Positions 26,001 through 64,000 of a stretch of DNA of 64,000 bases are shown here, piece by piece. The DNA comes from Sipunculus nudus (taxonomy: Eukaryota; Annelida; Sipuncula; Golfingiida; Sipunculidae): the NCBI GenBank assembly GCA_026874595.1, contig CM049311.1, forward strand, positions 17,879,676-17,943,675. Reading direction: 5' to 3'. Below the pieces are notes generated by a model. It saw only the letters and a list, made by a program, of their open reading frames with translations. It was not told the DNA's origin and did not search any database. Each line of letters begins with the position of its first letter. The first letter of the stretch is position 1. The position numbers were made by a program, and so were the translations under genes.

Positions 26001-28291
26001 TTATAATCTCACATTTCAAACTTTGGTTGTAATTTCTATGCCAGTGCATAAGATATAATAATATCTTAAGCTTTTTTCACAGTTAAGAAAAAGAAAAAGC
26101 CGCCTGCATCAAAAAGTGTCTGAGAAAGATATAATTTTTTTTTTTGGCCTTATTATTTATAGTTTTCTGTTTTTTTCTTTGTGGAATGTATATTTGAACT
26201 TTTACAAAGAGCAGTCAAAACCTTTTCTAAGTCATTACTAATTTATCTAATCAGACATTTTAATCAGATGTTGTTCTTCAGCTGAGCCCTTACATTCATG
26301 GGTCACTGATGACTAAATAGTTTGGAGATATTTCCAGTTTTTGCTGATAGGGGGCGCATCAGGCAGTCCTCTGAAGAAGCTTAAGACCACATGAATTAAT
26401 GTTCCTGTTTCTTATTTATTTCTGAATATTTTATTTCAAAGCTGAATACTTAAACAGACCATAACATTACTTTTTAGGACATGAGACCACATGAGATGCA
26501 ATATATTTTAAGTATAATTAATCATTAATGTCATTTGTGGGTTTATTGGGCTGAAATACTATATATCATGCATTTATGATATCTTCGTGGAACCAATTGA
26601 TTGAATTGAAATTGTTTAGGTCTGCATATATTTGAGGATTAAACAGCAAGTTTTGACATCAGACCTATGAAAACATTTAAACTTGTTTTAATTTGACCAA
26701 ATGAATATAATTATAAAAATATTTATGAACACTTCATAATATGATTATTTATGTGAATTATATATTATTGCAGGTTACAAGACTATGTGGGAAGGGAGCA
26801 GACACAAGTCTACTCTTTGCTCAGGTGTCAAAGCTACTGGCCAGCAATGATATGCTGGTGAAGAAAATGGTGTGCTGGTACATACAGCAGTATGCAGCCA
26901 ACCAGGAGCTTCAGCTCCTGACAGTCAATCAGCTCCTCAAAGATTGCAGAGACGCTAACCCCGTCATCAGAGCCCTGGGACTGCGGACACTAGCTTCTCT
27001 CCAAGCAGATCACATGGTAGAACACTGCACCCAAGCTGTTACAATGGGACTTAAAGACCAAAGTGCTTATGTGCGGAGAGCAGCTGTATGCGCATGTGCC
27101 AAATTAGGATCATGGAAAAGGGAATGTGTCATCACAAGTGGATTAGTGGATCAGTTATATCGAATGATCCGGGACACTGATCCGATAGTGGTCACGAACA
27201 GTCTGTCAGCATTGGAAGAGATTCTAGCGGAGGAAGGAGGCACAGTGTTGAATAAGAACATGGTGCATTTTATCCTCAATAAACTCCACACGTTCACTGA
27301 TATGGGGCTGTTTGTGATATTTCAGCTACTGTTAAGATATAAACCCAATTCAGACCAGGAAACTATTGATATTATGAATGTGATAGATGATTATTTGAAG
27401 CACAATAATTGTTGCATAGTGACCAGCGTGATCCAGTTCTTATTGAAGTTAACCCAGCACATGCCTCAGCTTCACAGTGAGGTCTTCAGAAGAGCCCATG
27501 TGTATCTATTTAAATGCCTTACAGTTTCTAATCATGAAATGTCTTCGCAACTTCTCGATTTCCTCGAGGGTCTGATGGATGATCACAAAGCAGAATTTGA
27601 AGCAAATCTGAAAGTGTTTTATTGCAAGCATAGTGAACCAGTTCATCTCAAACTCAAAAAGATGCGACTCTTACCACGTCTTGTGTGTGAAGAAAATGCT
27701 AAAGAAATTGTAGATGAGCTCTTCATCTCTTGCAAAGACTCAGAAAAGTTAGTTTCCTCAGAAGCAATTGTGCTTTTAGGTAAGATTGCCTTGAAAGCTG
27801 AAGCTATTTTAGATGCCTGCACAGAGAAATTTATAGAACTGCTAAATTTAAAGATAGGGTATATAACTTCATCCGTTTTAAAAGTGTTATTAAACATTAA
27901 TTTGACTGGCACAGAGCACTTGGAACATTTTGTGAAGCTGCTGCCATCTTGCATGCACCTAGTTAATGACACTGGTGGACAGATGGCGCTAGTGAGCTTG
28001 ACTGCTCAATATGGGGAACATATTCCTGATGCTCCTTATATCATGGAAGAATTTGTGGAAGGGCTAGGAGAAGCTGGTCCTAGTGACAGTGAATTGTTAT
28101 TAGCCATGCTGAGTGCAGCCACACGATTGTTTCTACAGCGACCAGCTGAGTGTCAGGACATACTAGCCACATTGTACAACCTGTGCACCCAATGTGAGGA
28201 TGTTCATGTGCATGATCATTTATTATTTTACTATGATTTGTTAAGAGGTAATGCTACAGAGGCATGCAAAGTTTTAAACCTAATCCCATGA
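23014..28291 (+). CDS. AP4B1: AP-4 adaptor complex subunit beta
   Basis: Large beta-type adaptin of the AP-4 coat, which sorts cargo at the trans-Golgi network. Exon 1 is 23014-23118 (35 aa, ATG in GTACGATGG) ending ATG|GTAAGA. Exon 2 starts after TTGCAG at 26774 and runs to TGA at 28291 (505 aa); phase 0 on both sides gives 540 aa. Adaptin N-terminal alpha-solenoid features align along the chain with vertebrate AP4B1: RDANPVIRALGLRTLASL, DQSAYVRRAAVCACAKL, RDTDPIVVTNSLSALEEIL, a YCKHSEP segment and FLQRPAECQDIL. Vertebrate AP4B1 is about 740 aa with a hinge and ear. Here the frame ends soon after the trunk (CKVLNLIP). An alternative donor at 28247 (AGAG|GTAATG) joins in phase to an acceptor at 28727, giving a different 44-residue tail stopping at 28861. 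Neither form shows an ear. The trunk is intronless, unlike most animal orthologues. Family assignment is firm; the 3' end is not. Confidence 0.9.
23760..24010. repeat. Dispersed repeat related to the MITE at 15.9 kb
   Basis: It shares GGATGCACAATG, CTCATAGGTCTGATTACAAT and GATGACTGCAGTGTATAAC with the interior and right arm of 15891-16220, in the same order. It lies in the single large intron of AP4B1. The inverted termini are less clear here, so the copy is diverged or partial. Confidence 0.6.
24905..24990. repeat. Dispersed repeat family B, copy 1
   Basis: ATCGCAAAAATTGAATCCTCATGAAAC and the following GAAAAGGTTAAAATGG-TGAAA and ATGCGAATATCAAGCC resemble 42836-42925 (ATCGCGAAAATAAAATCCTC). 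Short AT-rich element with GCGAA/TTCGC-type motifs, in AP4B1 intron 1. Confidence 0.45.
25228..25335. repeat. GTACTTGTACT-rich repeat
   Basis: The hexamer GTACTT/AGTACC and its complement recur about ten times in 100 bases (for example GTACTTGTACTTGTACTC). Low-complexity or subterminal-repeat block in AP4B1 intron 1. Confidence 0.6.
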
Positions 28292-30278: not shown

Positions 30279-32120
30279 TTTAACATTAACAGGTGGGCCT
30301 TTGTCAGTGCAAGAAACCTTATTAGTATTCTCAGATTTTGAACAAATATCGGGACTCAAAGTAAATATAGAAAAAACAATAATAATGCCAATAACTGCTA
30401 ACACACATGATCACGATACATTAAAATCCCTAGGCTTACAATGGTGCACCAATCCTGTAAAAATTTTAGGAATATCCATTCATCCAGAATGGAAAAAAAT
30501 GATAGGGATCAATTATAAAGAAATCCTGAGTAAGATTAAAGTTATTATTAATACCTGGAGTAACAGAATAATGTCTCTTGCAGGCAGGATAACAATTATA
30601 AAAACCTGCATAATTTCACAGCTAACTTATTTATTCTTAGTACTACCAAGTCCACCAAACAATTATATCAAAGAAATTGAAAAATTAATATTTAAATTTA
30701 TTTGGAATAACCAACCAGATAAAGTTAAAAGATCTACAATGATTGCACCAAAAAATAAAGGAGGGCTGAATATGATTCATCTTCCATCTAAGATACAATC
30801 TTTTAAAATTTCATGGGTTAAACGGTTCCTCAATGGACCTGCAGAAGATGGTTGGAGACAGATTATTAATGTACAATTTAAAAACCTGGGTTCATATATT
30901 TTTAAATGCAATTTAAAGAACATGATATACACAATTTCAGTGACTCATGCGACCCGTTCTGGAAAGATGTGTTACACCATTGGTGCAAATACAATTTTAA
31001 TAAGACTGTTAAAACACATGAAATTCAATTACAAACCTTATGGTATAATTCTCATATAAAGGTTAAAGGTACAGTAGTTTTTTATAAGAAATTGTATATG
31101 GCAGGCATAAAAACGCTTTCTGACATAACCAAAAAATCAGGAAACCATCTATCATTTTTGCCATTTAAAGAATTCACTAACAAATACAAGGTTAATATAA
31201 GTTTTATAAAATATGTAGGTTTAGTGGATGCAATCCCAACTTGTTGGAAAAGAGAGTTAAAGAATAATCCTTGTTTAGAAGTACAAGGTGGACAAAATAA
31301 TAAATATGAAAAATACAACTCAGTTTGTATACTTAAATATTATTAATTCTGTCTCTTCGAAACCAGAAAAGCAAATAGAGAAATGGATTGGTGAACTAAG
31401 GCTACAAAATAAAGGAAAAATATTTAAAGCATTCAAGAATATTGATAAAATTACTATTTCAGAGAAATTAAGAATTTTCCAATTCAAATTATTACATAGA
31501 ATTTTACCACTTAATCCACTTTTATATAAAATGAAGAAAAACGAAACTGAACTCTGTTCATTCTGTAAAAAACAAAAGGAAACTTATCTACATATATTTT
31601 ACCACTGTGAAGTAACCAATAAATTGTTAATAGCTTTTGAAAATTGGTCAAAAGACCTGGAACAATCTTTAAACTTAGGCAATGTTACAGGAACAGTATT
31701 AATATTAAACATCTCAGGTGACAGCCTACTTGATACCTTATTACTATTATTAAAACATTATATATATATCTGAAAACGAGAGAGAAATTACCAACATTCT
31801 CTATGTATAAAAGTTATGTCACACAGATTTATAAAATGGAAAAACAAATTGCGAATGCGAAGGGTAAAATAGAGAAACATAAACAAAAGTGGAAGAACTA
31901 TCAAAACATACATATTGAAAACGAATAAAACAACATAAAGATAAAAACTCATTTAACCCACATTTTGAATTAGAACAACAGTTTTATCTCTGTTATGTAC
32001 CTATGTTATTTGTATCTGTTTTGTATGTATGACTTTCAATTGTCTTTGTCTACATTTTGTCTTTATGTACAATGTACCTTATTGTTTGTACTATTTGTTT
32101 GGAATAAAAAAAAAAAAAAA
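30279..32120 (+). mobile_element. 5'-truncated non-LTR retrotransposon (LINE), L1/Tx1-like
   Basis: The 1.84 kb insertion is bounded by a 12-13 bp direct repeat and ends in GGAATAAA followed by about 17 A. Only the C-terminal part of ORF2 remains, so reverse transcription was incomplete, the usual outcome for LINE insertion. The 3' non-coding tail (about 31929-32120) is T-rich. The exact target duplication and intact poly(A) indicate a fairly recent insertion, although the reading frame is broken (see the pseudogene entry). Confidence 0.9.
30280..31928 (+). pseudogene. Broken LINE ORF2 (reverse transcriptase C-terminal half)
   Basis: Frame 1 to about 31059 carries the end of the RT domain (SGLKVNIEKT, VKILGIS) and the connected region typical of L1/Tx1-like elements (WSNRIMSLAGRITIIKT, LIFKFIWNN, NKGGLNMIHLPS, FKISWVKRF). 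The protein then continues in a second frame from about 30910 to 31300 and a third from about 31290 to 31770. The third frame contains a CSFCKKQKETYLHIFYHC motif, the usual C-terminal Cys/His knuckle. The last ~50 residues (31770-31928, ending ENE-stop) are in yet another frame, after an AT run. At least three frameshifts, so no functional enzyme. The clade is inferred from motif style only. Confidence 0.85.
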
Positions 32121-32512: not shown

Positions 32513-32518
32513 TTTATT
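32513..32518 (-). promoter_or_regulatory. Candidate polyadenylation signal of the FG-GAP gene
   Basis: TTTATT on the plus strand is AATAAA on the minus strand, 50 bases past the stop codon at 32568. The position is plausible for a compact 3' UTR. Confidence 0.5.
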
Positions 32519-32567: not shown

Positions 32568-35500
32568 TTAACTGGCCACGCAAGAGACCACGAACCCAGC
32601 TTCGTCGACGTCACAGTTGTAGTTGCTTGGGCCCGGAAGACCCAGACTTGGATCTACGTGGACACTGTCCACGAAACCATCGCTGGTCCTGGACAAAGTT
32701 GCCCCGTACGTCTTAATAAAACCTTTGCTGTCAATGGTAACCAGTGGAAAATGCAGACCGCCCTTTGTGTAATAATCTGCTATTAAGAAGAACCAATCCA
32801 TACATGCTGGGTATCCGGCCTGGGTCCTTTCAAGAGCGAAGTCTAACATGAGTTTGGTGTCACTAAAGTAGAGGTTTGCCAACGTTGCGAAGGCTTCTTG
32901 TGGACTCTTGATGAAGAAGTCGATCCCTATTGGACGGAGTACGTTCTTGTCTAGTTCCTGCCCCGGCCCTGTGTCAAAGTGATCCCGAAAGGTGGCGTCC
33001 CAGTCGGCAACGCCATCCCACCAGTCGTTCTGTTTGAAAAGAGCTTGTGTAGCCTTCCAATCGAAACCATGGTGGACTGGAGTTTTCCAAACCACGTGAC
33101 CCTCACTCCCTCGACGCAGGATCTCAAATTTCCTCTTGAAGAGGGTGAAGTTATAATTGTCTGCCAAAGACTGGTCGAGCTCGTTATGAGCTACCTCATG
33201 GGCAAGAGCTACAACAAATATCATAACGAACGGATCTCTGCCATCTTCCTTGCATACCTGACAGTCAGCAGGGAAACTGTTCTCTCCCCAGCTGTAATAG
33301 CTGCTGAAGATATTTGCGGCACTTTCTCTTATGTGACCGTATTTCATGCTTTTCCCTGTCAGATGGCTCCGCTGTGAGAGCAAGCCCAGAGAATACAACT
33401 CTGGGTCCTTCATCATCATAAAATCATATATAAGTTTGAGTTTTCCCTCGTCTTCAGCGTCATTGTTTAACAACAAGAGTCCTCTGTCCACGAGGAGACG
33501 GGCAGCGTAACCGGAATGTAGAGTAACATCACTAAGTAACTGGCGATAGTCTGGCGTATTTGGTCTGCTTTCTATCACAACCATCCAGACGTATGCGGCA
33601 TGCTGGGCGGCACCGGGGGTGTCCCAAGACTGCCGGGCATAATACTGCGGATACATGGTAATTATATTAATATACCAGTCATATATACCTTGTTTAACAT
33701 GATCTGGGAAAATTGGGTTATTTACATATTCTTGCAACACTCGATGCTTGTCGTAGACGGCGTCATAAATTTCTGGGTCCTCGTTCATTGCTTTGTTTAA
33801 ATTATCAGGGAAGTCCAAGAGTAAGGATTCCAGACCCAGCTGTGCGTCTGTGACGGCGTCAATACCTTTGAAGAACAAGATGTCTCCAGTTCCGGTTTTA
33901 TCCCCTGACACCACAACATCCATAACGCCATCGCCGTCCACGTCACCTAGAGTCGGACACTGATGCTCACCGTAGCTGCGAATGTTGACGTCAGTTCCAT
34001 CTTCATATTTGAGACGATAAACCTTATACGTGCCATCAGGATTTCTGAAACCTATAGTTATGAAACCCCAGTTAATAGTGTAGAGCACCTCATCAGATCC
34101 GTCACCATTAAAGTCAAACAGGCGGGGCCAGGGGGTGTATGCGCCGGGAGTCCAATTAGGATACAGCGCTCCATCGGCAAGGACAGGGTTAGTGTTGGTA
34201 CCAGTGTTGAGATAGTACATCAGCCCGCCATAGAAATTCCCCGTGACGACGTCAAGTAATCCATCACCGTTCCAGTCTCTGACGTCAAAACGGTTCGAGT
34301 CCAACCTGCGGAGAGGGATTTTGTGATCGAACGTGGGAATGCCGTCACTTTCACCTGATTGTGGATAGTAGTTCAGCTGAAGATTTTCAGTGAGAAGCAG
34401 GTCTGCATCGCCATCGCCATCGATATCAGCAAACGCAATGCTGGTCTTCCTCACACCTTTGACCCCCGTGTCGATAGGGCCGGTTATGTCCTGTAGGGGG
34501 CGCTGCGGGGCGTACGTGCTGTCCTCGTTTTGGAGGTGAACGTAGACGCAGCCTTCGGTTGCTACCACGAGGTCCAATTTCCCGTCTTCGTTCAGGTCGT
34601 GCAGGCTGACAGTAGCACTTTGTGGGTAAGTAAGGTTACTCCCGTCAGCGTAATGTAGAGGTTGTGCAGGTCCGTATATCAATGTCGGCTTCTTGTCTGC
34701 CAAAGACACATAAAAATGCCAGTGTGTAATATGGCAGCTACAAGTGTTTACATTATTCAGAAATGGCACATAAGGATTGAATAGCTGTGCTAGTTTATTA
34801 TTATCAGGGGCGGATCCAAGAAAAGAGGACTAATGACAAAACTTTTAAAAAAGGACATTAGGTCTGGAAAGGGGGGATTGAGGCCAAATTAAATGGTCTA
34901 AAAACCATAAAAAAAGGTGTTGGTGAAAAGGTGTGTGTTGGGGGGGGGGGGGGGTGGGGGATGTGCGGACCACTCTTGGTATGCATATTCCCGTTTCATT
35001 CTTTAAGAACAGCTGAGATATACATTTAATTCATCTTTTATATCTTTCTTACATCAAACCAACTTAAAAAAAATAATAATAGATGTAACCAAACAAAGAT
35101 TTTTTGAAAATTTGAATACTCCAGGACATCCAGCTCTTGTCGTGATTTAAGTTTAGTTACTCAATAGAGAAAGCGAATGATGGGAGGGGGACGGAAAAAA
35201 ATACGTGAAGAGAATGTACATGAAAATTAACTCTAATATACATGGGGGTTTGTTAGTCAAAGTTGATTACATCTTTAGATATCATATAAGCCTTCAGTGC
35301 CACCAGAAGGAAAATATCTATTTAGGAAAATGTCAGCTGCAATGGCAACCCACACATGCATCCTAGGTGGTTATTGGGACATTTTGTTCTGACGGGACAG
35401 ACGACAAGGGGCAGGTGTACCCAGAAAAACCCAATCTCCAGCAACAGATCTCCTGAACAAGAGAGCCTCGTGTCCTTAGCTGTAATACAGTATAAATATT

Positions 35501-35778
35501 TACTATATCGCAGAGGGCAGACCGTACTCGTGCGTTTTTGTGAGAGTGGCATGCACCGTGGGTTGGCGGGTGGTACAAGTGTCACTATCACATAAGACTG
35601 TCTTTTTTATGTACACTAAAAGTCTAATTTTGAGTGTTTTTTTTTTGTCACAGACATATGTAACGTGCGGCCTTATTTGCTTCCGTTAATAAGTGTATTT
35701 GTTTTATTTTATTTTCTGCTTTCTTGATGAATGAAACATTGAGAATAATTATATTCCCAATTACGTGGCACCGTGCGT

Positions 35779-35844
<66 letters not shown>

Positions 35845-36128
35845 AACGGCGTATAAATATTGGGTCATGATGAAAACGAGACTTTAGGACTCATATACAT
35901 ATATAAGGTAAGTACATAATAGATTGATGCATGTAAGCCTACCTGTGCAGGTCTCTATCCATAATTCTGATAGAAATATTGTGAATATTCATATAAATGC
36001 ATGCAGAACTCGCCCTTTGACCAACCGCCAGGATGGCGCAATCATTACCTATTGTTCTATTATAATGGACGGATTCCGCAAAGAAATATTTAAACGTGAA
36101 AGATCATGAATAAAAGTTAAAATAGCTT

Positions 36129-36194
<66 letters not shown>

Positions 36195-37137
36195 CGCGAG
36201 TGGATAGTCGCATAAAGTGAATATATAAACTAACTAAAATGACAATTAGACTAACGGGTGAGGTGCTCCATTTCTCATGTAGTTGTGTAATTATACGAAG
36301 CTATGCGCTTCACTTTATTGCATATACCATTTATATCATGTTGGTCATGTAGGACTAGTATGCTAGGGATTACATTATACGTGAATGTACAGAGGATAGC
36401 CATGCTGGTACATTGTATAGATAAATGGAACAGGAATAAACAGAAAAGCCGAATGGGAATTGAACTCATGATCTTCCAGTTGCTTGTCGTATGCTCTACC
36501 AGTGAGCTACCAATGCAAAGTCGCTGTGTCGGCACATGCAAGGTAATATACTCTGGCGTCACTTCTGTGACGTTACTTGTGACGTCACGTACTGTGACGA
36601 TTCCTATAAACGTGTGCTTATTCACAGAGGGGTTGGTGATCTGTAGTATATAGTATGTGACCCGCATTCGGAGAGTCATAAGTTCGATTCCGATTCGCAG
36701 TAAAATATCTTTTCTGTGTATTTATGTTCCATTTCATTTTCCTATATTTGTGTATAAAATGTGTGAACGAAGTAGCTGATAAAATGTATCCAGGTTATTT
36801 CAAGAGGAGGTAAAAGAAACTTTTATCTTAAAAGCTAGTCATTATAAAATATAACAGGGGACGATGGGATCACGTTACTAAGATTGTTTATGCTGACAGT
36901 GGCATCTCTCGTCGCCTCGAGTATATGACCCCAGCTGTATATACAGAACATAGTGTATTAAGACACCCAGGCATCTTGTCTGCACTGAATGACCCTGTAT
37001 GTCATGGGCTGATCGTCAGAATAAGGCCAGGCTTATTAACTCGAAAGAGACATTTCTGAGGTTATCTATAGGATTCCCTGTCGGTCTTATTCAAATGGAT
37101 ATTCTCATAAATCTTTATTTTACATATTTAAAGAAAC

Positions 37138-37183
<46 letters not shown>

Positions 37184-39769
37184 ATAACGAAAAGGCCTAA
37201 AATAGGGTTCATGCTTTGCATATATAGTGTATACATCTTCGATTGTTTGTGTGTTTGCCTTATAAAAAAATCATGTGTGTTGTTTGTTCCACGGTATTTT
37301 GATAGTTGCAAAAAGGAAAAACTGAACAAATGTTTGAAATGTCCAGTTTTCCAAGTGCGGGAAAATATTATTTTATCCTTGCTGTTTGTCTGTGTACATA
37401 AAAATAAGAATGAACAATCACTGAGCCTGACATCCGGTAGATAAATTAGATTTAGTCCCTGTCAAGTGTCACGCAGATACATAGAGATGTTGGGTGGGGG
37501 GGTATATATCCTCCCACTTTTTAACGGGGGGGGGGGGGGTTAATGTAATCATTCTTCAGCCCCGATATTCATGAGAATAATATTTACATATACGAATTGA
37601 AATATATTAATAATTAGAATTAAAGATTTTAGTTCCATTTCTGAGTTAACTATGAACTTTTATATCTAAAACTGGTTTAGAATTAACATACAGTATACTA
37701 TAAACATAATAACTTATTTCTTAACACCTTGTACTTAATTGTAATGTATTTTAAATGTGTCACAGAGGGAAAAAGTTGTCCCAACTTTGATTACCCTCCC
37801 ACGCCTCCGAGTCATCCCCCCACCTTTGATGATCAATTGACGCCACTGTGCAGATGAAAATAACAGTAAAATCAAGAAAATGTTTCACATGATCCGTATT
37901 TTTCTTTTGACTTAATTGCACTTTTGTGAAGGATATCTCTTACTGTGATCATTTTTATGCAGTCTTTGAACTTCAACACAGAAGCTCTTTCAAACGGGGC
38001 TAACATAACGTCCTATGAATTCAAGAGATTTCTACTTAACTTTTCTGATTAATGACATATAAAGACACACCTTTATACATTTACACACTATATACAGATA
38101 AGACTATATGAAAAAAAAATATCATTAAAGGTACCTATTCACCTGCTTTTGGAGAAGAATTTATGTTATTTCCCCTTTAAACACGGGAGCCTCTACACAC
38201 CGAACAATTCAGTAAATGTAAATTGTGCAGTATTATCAAGATCATTTCTGTTTAATTGTAAACGTTTTCATTCATTTTTGTACAGAAAGTCGCCATTTTC
38301 TTCCGTGTGTCTTTCTTTCTCCGCCTGATCATCTTTATAAAGCTAGAATTTCACATACCAGACTCTAAAAGTTGAGGTTATTGATATAGTTAACGCTATT
38401 TTGATAAAAAAAAAATAGGCTGGTATAAGCGACAAAAATTGACTGGATAACTCGTATACATATGGCTGGGTTAAACTAGGCGCACACTAAATCATTTTTC
38501 ACAAAAGCTATATTGACAACAGAAATGCAGATGCAAGTTCTGGGTGAGAAAATACGCTCCCAGTTTTACCTAAATCACTGTATCGGCCGGTCTTACAATA
38601 ATCACGCAACTAAGAAGTCCGATGTATATGCAATGAAGTCGTTTTTTTATTAAATGTTTTATTATGCAATTATGTTAAACTGAGACATATTAATAGAGTA
38701 TTCTTGGTTTTTACTCCGTTCTTACTTTAGGAATCAAAATGAATTTGGCCATGTAAAATTACACTGGTTTCACAACATAGACCCCTGCTTAACTTAGTCA
38801 CATGCGGGACACAACAGTTCAACATGCCTGCAGGCTTGTTGTCGCAACCACAACAAACTAACATATATTCTAACATAAAGAATGCGTGAGGCCAACCAGA
38901 CATCTGCATGTAACAATTACAACCATAATGTGTATTATTATCTGAAATATCGGGAACGATTTTTAAGGTTTCTGTACACAACATGTGAGTAGCAGTTATG
39001 GGAAGGTACCAACTGTTCCCGGGATTTGGTACTTGGTTCAATATTATGAAGATTGTGGGAACGCTTCGTCTGGTATTTTAATTCATTGATAATTTCATAC
39101 AGATGTTCATAAAATTGCAAAATTACTATTTAATCTAAACTTGACTATAATTTCTGCTGCGGCATAAGCCCATATATTAACGTTAATGGTGACATGATGG
39201 ATGCACAATTCTGTGACATAGGGAACCACGCTGGACAGTGTGTTTGGAAAAGGAAAGTCATAAGTTTTCACTGATGAAAACAGGCATTTTTGGAGTGAGT
39301 GGCCGAATAAGCAACAAAGGAAACTTATTCCTAAGTATTAATTCTAGTATGTATTTAGTTGGTAAGAAATATGATTGTTATATTTAAATGTTAAAAACAT
39401 GCTTAAGCATGAAGTTAAAAAAAAAAGAAAACTGCAAATACCGAATGAGACAGACTGAAATATCTGAACTGACTAAAATATAATATAATTTAGGCAGTCA
39501 GTGAAGCTGATGAAGACCCTAAAGAAATTTTTGGTAACAAGATCCTTAATAAAGTAAATGGTAAATCTATGAAATCTGGTATCAGTTGTTCCGAAATATG
39601 TAAGGATTCACGTTAAATTGGGATACAACTATGTGGAACTTTTAAAGATGTTAAACGAGCCCAGCCTCCCTGTGGTGCTGGAACGTCACTTACCGGCGAC
39701 AGCAGCTGCTGTGATGGACAGACAGACCAGGAGATACCCGGTCAGCAACAGCAGTCGTCGCATCCCCAT
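32568..39769 (-). CDS. Secreted FG-GAP/VCBS-repeat protein with HEVAH zinc-peptidase-like motif
   Basis: Two coding exons. 39694-39769 gives 25 residues, a clear signal peptide (Arg-Arg, Leu-rich core, Ala-rich end), then donor G|GTAAGT. 32568-34696 opens after TTTGGCAG. Phases match (1 + 2 bases), giving 734 aa with no internal stop. Residues ~30-310 hold five DxNxDG- or DxDGDG-type calcium loops (59-67, 116-124, 166-174, 220-228, 277-285) spaced 50-58 residues apart, as in FG-GAP/VCBS beta-propeller blades. Residues ~310-520 look helical. HEVAH at 525-529 sits in a hydrophobic helix (FVVALAHEVAHNELDQ) and could bind zinc. Glu626 in SPQEAFATLANLYF is a possible third ligand, unproven. No membrane anchor follows. 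The architecture suggests an extracellular calcium-stabilised binding propeller joined to a peptidase-like domain. I do not recognise a named family. An in-frame ATG at 34769 would skip the signal peptide and is less likely. Confidence 0.88.
34803..34990. repeat. GGGGCGGATCCA-type repeat in FG-GAP gene intron
   Basis: It starts TCAGGGGCGGATCCAAGAAA, as at 5253 and 21112. It contains two GGACTAATGACA/GGACATTAGG-type motifs and ends in a poly-G run near 34940-34955. Partial copy of the family; the right terminus is unclear. Confidence 0.55.
35778..35841. repeat. Compound (TG)n(AG)n microsatellite
   Basis: About 11 TG units followed by about 20 AG units, in the intron of the FG-GAP gene. Confidence 0.95.
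36131..36192. repeat. (TA)n microsatellite
   Basis: About 30 uninterrupted TA units in the intron of the FG-GAP gene. Confidence 0.95.
36446..36520 (-). repeat. tRNA-like SINE head (minus)
   Basis: On the minus strand an A-box, TAGCTCACTGGTAGAGC (36509-36493), is followed 25 bases later by a B-box, GAGTTCAATTCCC (36467-36455), with tRNA-like spacing. The 5' and 3' ends do not pair into an acceptor stem, so this is a tRNA-derived sequence, probably a SINE head, not a working tRNA gene. Confidence 0.6.
36625..36705 (+). repeat. tRNA-like SINE head (plus)
   Basis: A plus-strand B-box-like AAGTTCGATTCCGA (36680-36693) is preceded by a weaker A-box-like TGGTGATCTGTAGTATATAG. It lies on the opposite strand from the tRNA-like unit at 36446-36520, with TGACGTCA-type repeats between them (36556-36600). 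Confidence 0.45.
37141..37181. repeat. (TA)n microsatellite
   Basis: Uninterrupted TA tract of about 40 bases. Confidence 0.95.
37470..37850. mobile_element. GGCGTCAATTT-end nonautonomous element, copy 1
   Basis: The right end, CAATTGACGCCACTGTG, matches the ends at 53.5 and 57.6 kb. The interior, with GGGG runs, TAATGTAATCATT, GAAATATATTAA and TTAGTTCCATTTC, aligns with the copy at 57.2-57.7 kb in order. The left terminus is worn. Non-coding. Confidence 0.65.
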
Positions 39770-63013: not shown

Positions 63014-64000
63014 TCACGATAAAGTTTTTGCTGGCGTTCTTGCTTGCTCAGCAGGAGTCATGGTAAAACAATCTTCTAAAGCTGTAAACGATCCACTGTC
63101 ATTCAACCGCGCGGAAAGCTTATTCACTGGATGGTTCAGCTCGTACATCATGTTAAGCAACAATGTGTCCGACACCGGAAGTTTAGGCGTTGAACCGTAT
63201 GTATTCATGCGCGCTGGTTTTACATGTAGTCCAGTCTTACTCGTCTTTGTTGTGCTTTTGTTAAAGTTCAGATAGCTCGCAATAGAATCGAAAACGTACC
63301 GGGATGACTCTGTGACGTCATTGCTTGTGCTGTCATACATTGGTCGAAAAGAAACTGCCCCCTCTGAGTATGAACTGCTCATTATACCCTTCGGTCCTTT
63401 GGTTTCTTCTTCAGGCACTGTTAAACCGTTCTTTTGTGTGTTAATCACAAGACACAGTTTGAGATCTCGCTTGTTCTCATCGATGGGCGACATAATCTCG
63501 CGAGATCGTGCTAACCATCGTTTTCGTTGTCTGAATTCAGTCAAATCAAATTTGTTTTCTGCGGCATTACGAACGGACTCTGTGCCAGGGTGATCTATAT
63601 AGGAGTCCAGAGACTCAGCTTTCACTTTGGACGTTTCGTAGTAGCTGGTAGGCTGCATGGAGCCAATATTTAGTGAGGGTAGTTTTAAACTGGTGGATCT
63701 TCCGCCATAATCACTGAGTGCACTTCGGCAGGTCTCGGGGTCTCGCCGATTTTGTGACATGGCGGTTTTCGTTCGTCTGTCAGACTGGCCACATGACTGC
63801 CCTCTGAAACTGATTTTCTGGACTTGACTGCTATTACAACCTGAACCTCCAGATACTTTAGTCCCTTTTAGCACGAAGGCATTGCGTTTCACTTGGTCAC
63901 ATTGAGAAAGTGACGTCATTGGCGGCATCTCATAGACCAACCGGCGGTTCGCTAAGTATTCCAGGCGGCGCCCAACAGGCGTAGCGGCCGACTCCTTTTT
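63014..64000 (-). CDS. 3'-terminal coding exon of an unrecognised protein (partial)
   Basis: The minus strand is open for 328 codons from the window edge (64000, reading KKESAATPVGRRLEYLANRR) to a stop at 63014. Such a length is very unlikely by chance in this AT-rich DNA. An ATG at 63928 is internal to the open frame, so the true start or upstream exon lies beyond the window. The product is hydrophilic, rich in Ser, Thr, Lys and Arg, has no membrane segment, and looks largely disordered. Recognisable stretches include KFDLTEFRQRKRWLARSREI, ESSRYVFDSIASYLNFN and a helix-like LLLNMMYELNHPVNKLSARL near the C-terminus. It could be the cytoplasmic tail of a receptor or channel, or a regulatory protein; I cannot assign a family. 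Confidence 0.7.
   Translation of the reverse strand, partial: KKESAATPVGRRLEYLANRRLVYEMPPMTSLSQCDQVKRNAFVLKGTKVSGGSGCNSSQVQKISFRGQSCGQSDRRTKTAMSQNRRDPETCRSALSDYGGRSTSLKLPSLNIGSMQPTSYYETSKVKAESLDSYIDHPGTESVRNAAENKFDLTEFRQRKRWLARSREIMSPIDENKRDLKLCLVINTQKNGLTVPEEETKGPKGIMSSSYSEGAVSFRPMYDSTSNDVTESSRYVFDSIASYLNFNKSTTKTSKTGLHVKPARMNTYGSTPKLPVSDTLLLNMMYELNHPVNKLSARLNDSGSFTALEDCFTMTPAEQARTPAKTLS

Follow-up and report, generated by a model that had tools for sequence, protein, structure and literature searches.

The question raised by a gene on the minus strand of a Sipunculus nudus window (the whole stretch of DNA analyzed, 64,000 nucleotides of contig CM049311.1, assembly GCA_026874595.1) is whether a protein that joins an FG-GAP/VCBS propeller to a domain with an HExxH motif is a secreted peptidase, and how an animal came to carry it. 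At the level of sequence, the N-terminus of this protein resembles a signal peptide; it is followed by an FG-GAP/VCBS propeller and by a C-terminal domain in which an HExxH motif and a distant Glu are conserved. Taken together, the evidence makes it probable that it is a secreted zinc metalloendopeptidase with a docking propeller and a lethal-factor/MtfA/PPEP-like site, derived from bacteria and multiplied in the animal. On a more specific reading our judgment is evenly balanced; here, an uncatalogued family, which combines a five-bladed VCBS propeller with a lethal-factor/MtfA-type gluzincin carrying about 50 inserted residues between its zinc ligands, would have come from planctomycete-like bacteria, gained a spliced signal-peptide exon and grown, at 17 or more loci, into an arsenal of secreted proteases directed to glycans, digestive or antimicrobial in role, with at least one copy lacking a zinc ligand. 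Zincins and propellers of these kinds are known; the family and the combination are unnamed in the catalogues searched, where neither the C-terminal domain nor the two-part protein has a name, in agreement with an original prediction, made from the same DNA, that did not recognize the combination as a named family. Among the open-licence PMC papers listed, none dealt with a propeller combined with an HExxH peptidase.

Conservation of the proposed active site

32571..33866, minus strand: C-terminal region A1, 432 amino acids (aa), with a helical part, a peptidase-like domain and a C-terminal beta part; model with a predicted local distance difference test score (pLDDT) of 89.4 and a predicted template modelling score (pTM) of 0.87
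33186..33200, minus strand: HEVAH, residues 525-529, proposed His ligands and general base
32895..32897, minus strand: Glu626, candidate third zinc ligand (SPQEAFATLAN), present in 35/35 rows and standing opposite E211 of E. coli MtfA in the alignment

The active site was surveyed in 35 rows, 14 animal and 21 bacterial, some of which are near-identical. The survey omits the broken loci L044-L046, a fragment without the HExxH part (L065), fragments without a locus (e.g., the second in G984) and duplicates; L043, which has a stop in its propeller, was included for its open peptidase half. The proposed ligands withstood this check, with His525 found in 34 of the rows and Glu526, His529 and Glu626 in all 35, and Asn437, Asn487, Asp503, Arg547, Arg613, Asn633, Arg649 and Arg695 were each kept in 34 or 35. 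The protein thus shows the HExxH motif and downstream invariant Glu by which gluzincins are recognized. A metzincin reading, which the original prediction had already set aside, was ruled out by the motif, as HEVAHNELDQS lacks Gly-x-x-His and there is no HExxHxxGxxH/D; background on HExxH peptidase families is given in PMC3650047. A DCxxC cysteine pair was found in all 14 animal rows and in none of the eight bacterial rows of alignment A3.

The conserved pattern and what is generally known of gluzincins suggest that His525, His529 and Glu626 would hold one zinc and that Glu526 would activate water as general base, with the active site working as in the lethal-factor/MtfA/PPEP group. The spacing of 97 residues between His529 and Glu626, which had been flagged as unusual, is real; 28 rows space the two residues by 94-101, the seven compact bacterial rows by 46-51 and MtfA by 59. 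Because the compact rows space their ligands at 46-51 and the long rows at 94-101, about 50 residues inserted into a conserved frame can account for the difference, and the two bacterial forms would show an active site that tolerates a large insertion between metal ligands.

Several observations weigh against an active peptidase. In MtfA, as in the PPEP and lethal factor type, a Tyr stands seven residues ahead of the Glu ligand, whereas the window protein has Phe619 at this position. Of the 35 rows, 20 carry Phe there, seven Tyr, five Trp and three some other residue, so that 28 are without the Tyr. With this Tyr mostly replaced, the family must have another way to stabilize the transition state, perhaps an Arg or Asn that is invariant; failing that, its members would be slow or inactive. 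Moreover, the paralogue L039 (G000:C5, 28.52 Mb) has an otherwise open frame in which the first zinc His is changed to Tyr (YEVGH), making it a candidate binding-only member, and some structural neighbors of the propeller are lectins. These points would fit a protein that binds zinc and has little or no proteolytic activity, in which the propeller does the work, as a lectin or in pattern recognition, and the peptidase-like domain serves as a scaffold. In zincins, however, the Glu of HExxH is required for catalysis and not for zinc binding, and its retention as Glu526 in every bacterial and animal row makes such a protein unlikely. Activity is testable with one ordinary secreted protein.

Comparison of the C-terminal region with known peptidases

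32694..33533, minus strand: stretch aligning with MtfA and PPEP-3, within A1 residues 112-391

The HEVAH motif had been predicted to lie in a helix, and the structural model indeed places it at the end of one (A1 216-226, block pLDDT 90), with Glu626 at the start of a second helix (A1 323-335, block pLDDT 92). The catalytic half gave a weak structural alignment with two zincins of the MtfA/PPEP kind; among 50 VIA rows, just three extend past model residue 238, namely MtfA (two entries) and PPEP-3 (PDB 9g3t). A search of the C-terminal model against PDB by Foldseek returned nothing at E<=0.001, BFVD gave no match at E<=0.001, and a 14-member profile of the family matched no PDB sequence. The C-terminal 432 residues of the window protein had no Pfam match at the cut-off (one lay far below it) and none in NCBIfam, PADLOC or PHROGs. 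In the remaining members, the lowest Pfam E-values were 0.0022 for SNRNP200_wHTH (3 members), 0.018 for Peptidase_M78 (2) and 0.074 for Peptidase_M90 (1); these sub-threshold matches were not counted as evidence. PHROGs across the 14 members gave a best E of 0.053.

That the protein is a gluzincin unrelated to MtfA, PPEP and lethal factor, with a similar zinc motif reached by convergence, is doubtful, considering that the sole VIA rows, of 50, to extend past model residue 238 come from this group and that the idea of an MtfA or lethal-factor relationship preceded any fold search. MtfA represents peptidase family M90 (E. coli mtfA; PDB 3dl1/3khi), whose Pfam entry PF06167 is unmatched by the window protein and is the one reached at E 0.074 by a single member of the 14. 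At 265 aa, MtfA is too small to include a propeller, and a propeller is not known in the Pro-Pro endopeptidases (PPEP) or in the anthrax lethal factor type (M34). If kinship with this group is true, a peptidase family with its own ligand spacing and without the usual catalytic tyrosine would join the lethal-factor-like gluzincins.

The propeller

33864..34679, minus strand: FG-GAP/VCBS propeller, about residues 32-303, with five DxDxDG loops and five predicted blades (model m6f0af2b62d45)

The N-terminal half matches Pfam FG-GAP_3 (PF13517) with an E of 2.9e-24 and 85.9 bits against a curated cut-off of 26.9, and carries five DxDxDG-type loops, at residues 59, 116, 166, 220 and 277. In the predicted model the secondary structure of residues 4-277 reads as five sheets, and the model's best matches among the VIA rows are GH43/GH62 enzymes, which are five-bladed propellers; the VIA list for the full-length protein was taken up by propellers. 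The best Foldseek chains for the propeller include PVL-type lectins and CRTAC1 (E 5e-7 to 8.5e-6). Loops of the DxDxDG type and PF13517 are common to the window protein and to the PVL and AAL2 lectins, CRTAC1 and integrin alpha. By contrast with the VCBS/FG-GAP lectins and integrin alpha, the window propeller is predicted to be five-bladed and is fused to a peptidase domain; PVL lectins and integrin alpha propellers are described as seven-bladed in PMC8023676. The FG-GAP/VCBS assignment of the original prediction stands; as for the integrin alpha type that it mentioned, the predicted model speaks against an integrin-like seven-bladed propeller. Kinship with lectin and adhesion propellers suggests that a calcium-stabilized propeller may dock the enzyme on a glycan or glycoprotein, which could confine cleavage to the bound substrate.

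Apart from the family, the large contigs had a single FG-GAP_3 locus among those listed, L047 (G000:C5:1375200-1377700), an ordinary gene that carries an ASPIC/UnbV domain and is read here as CRTAC1-like. Two contigs numbered far down the assembly (G000:C134 and C135) match FG-GAP_3 at about 42-51 kb, in frames that extend to 805 aa and are possibly bacterial.

Gene structure and paralogues

39694..39769, minus strand: exon 1, 76 bases, signal peptide MGMRRLLLLTGYLLVCLSITAAAVA, with a phase-1 donor GTAAGT at 39693
34697..39693, minus strand: intron of about 5 kb (GT...TTTGGCAG), read from splice signals only
32568..34696, minus strand: exon 2, residues 26/27-734 and the stop codon, which ends at 32568
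32513..32518, minus strand: AATAAA polyadenylation signal, about 50 bases beyond the stop

The signal peptide, the five loops and HEVAH at 525-529 are all present as originally described, and so is the 734-residue frame; it is not uninterrupted, as had been claimed, because the span 32568-39769 holds an intron of about 5 kb. On the exon-intron reading from splice signals, the spliced frame of 2205 bases encodes 734 aa and a stop, with residues 27-734 in a single open exon.

The 1.43-Gb genome, in which the window lies on a contig of 88.9 Mb, is metazoan, with 36 Wnt matches where 14 control genomes gave none. A search of this genome found at least 17 loci (15 long matches and fragments of two more) on six chromosome-size contigs, with groups at C1 27.3 Mb, C3 62.3 Mb, C5 16.7 Mb and C5 28.5 Mb. 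With one divergent paralogue as query, the search recovered these loci again, and the genome yielded no further form. The large exon is open at 13 loci and broken at L043-L046; L034 is counted as open, as its frame covers the exon and its one TAA is taken to sit in the preceding intron. Ratios of nonsynonymous to synonymous substitution (dN/dS) on the peptidase half were 0.10-0.31 in ten pairs with a proportion of synonymous differences (pS) <0.6, and 0.10-0.24 in the eight pairs without L043, which indicates that the family is under purifying selection. Phase-1 signal-peptide-like exons also lie upstream of L031 and L042; for the other paralogues, a simple scan of the fetched upstream stretch gave no convincing signal-peptide exon. 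Blade 1 is found in a separate upstream stretch at L031, L033 and L034, and was not found in the upstream scan of L032.

Although a large exon and the existence of bacterial homologues might be expected of bacterial contamination of the assembly, this source, like a chance HExxH, is extremely improbable. The gene has splice signals and a 5-kb intron, lies about 4 kb away from an adaptin gene (AP-4-beta-like) on a contig of 89 Mb, and belongs to a family spread over six chromosome-size contigs, with blade 1 separately encoded in three paralogues. Chance is further opposed by the FG-GAP_3 match (E 2.9e-24) and by conservation of the HExxH and Glu in paralogues and bacterial homologues.

Bacterial relatives and origin of the family

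A profile built from the 14 animal rows found matches in 6 of 392 genomes of the phylum to which G002 (Planctomycetota) belongs, with E down to 2.7e-77, and an animal and bacterial profile matched 9/298, 10/154 and 1/3 genomes of three classes, sets that overlap with the 392-genome phylum set. In the phylum of a Pseudomonas genome, 0 of 398 genomes matched, in a set without a positive control. The Planctomycetota proteins (L052/L061, L054/L072, L056/L063, L057/L071 and others) have a propeller and the same C-terminal domain, with HExxH and a Glu spacing of 94-101. Pfam found FG-GAP_3 in all six long-form bacterial proteins scanned and in none of three compact ones; two of the six long forms also have cadherin-like and bacterial Ig-like domains, and one of them laminin-G as well. 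The planctomycete genome G290 (L057-L059, L062, L071) holds three family copies in very long frames, the scanned copy being the one with cadherin-like, bacterial Ig-like and laminin-G domains.

The compact bacterial relatives (L066-L070, L080, L081), with their spacing of 46-51, include three that were scanned whole without an FG-GAP match, and Pfam gave nothing convincing for their domain in 7 members (best E 0.032). Plasmids and phages yielded no relatives of the C-terminal region by tblastn. Pattern searches of genome_contigs and viral_contigs matched 78, 62 and 10 stretches, none of which tblastn confirmed. Three frames reached by a loose HEVxHNELD DNA pattern were taken as unrelated (best profile E 0.047); one of these three genomes held a true homologue elsewhere. 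Such pattern searches are insensitive, since a whole-genome profile search then found bacterial homologues.

The presence of the same two-part protein in some planctomycete bacteria suggests that the gene passed from bacteria to the animal and was multiplied there, and acquisition from bacteria is the simplest and most likely account. The family most likely came from Planctomycetota-like bacteria; in the animal it would have acquired its separate signal-peptide exon and reached 17 or more loci, 13 with an open large exon. If true, this would be a bacterial two-domain enzyme that an animal appears to have domesticated and multiplied.

An alternative is that the family has an ancient origin in animals or eukaryotes, from which it passed to bacteria, or that it was inherited vertically. 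In its favor, just one eukaryote genome was searched, and some features of the tree weaken the case for a bacterial source: the fork that joins the animal group and two long-form bacterial groups was not resolved, the root is a midpoint only, four bacterial rows lie on long branches and seven rows (one of them animal) are of unlike composition. Against it, it was in bacteria that the more divergent forms, the compact ones among them, were found, the animal rows group together with support 100/100, and the divergent animal query revealed no other form in this genome. Taking both sides into consideration, a eukaryote-first or vertical origin is rather unlikely, and acquisition from bacteria remains the preferred account.

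Other features of the window

The neighboring adaptin gene, an ordinary animal gene, is a 516-aa open Adaptin_N frame (26741-28291, plus strand, E 4.4e-54) and is AP-4 beta-like by our reading. A 308-aa open frame (63014-63940, minus strand) had no Pfam match at E<=0.01. Decayed frames resembling a retroelement of the long interspersed nuclear element (LINE) type were also found (30301-31773, plus strand), with a zf-RVT match (E 4.4e-9) within 31288-31773.
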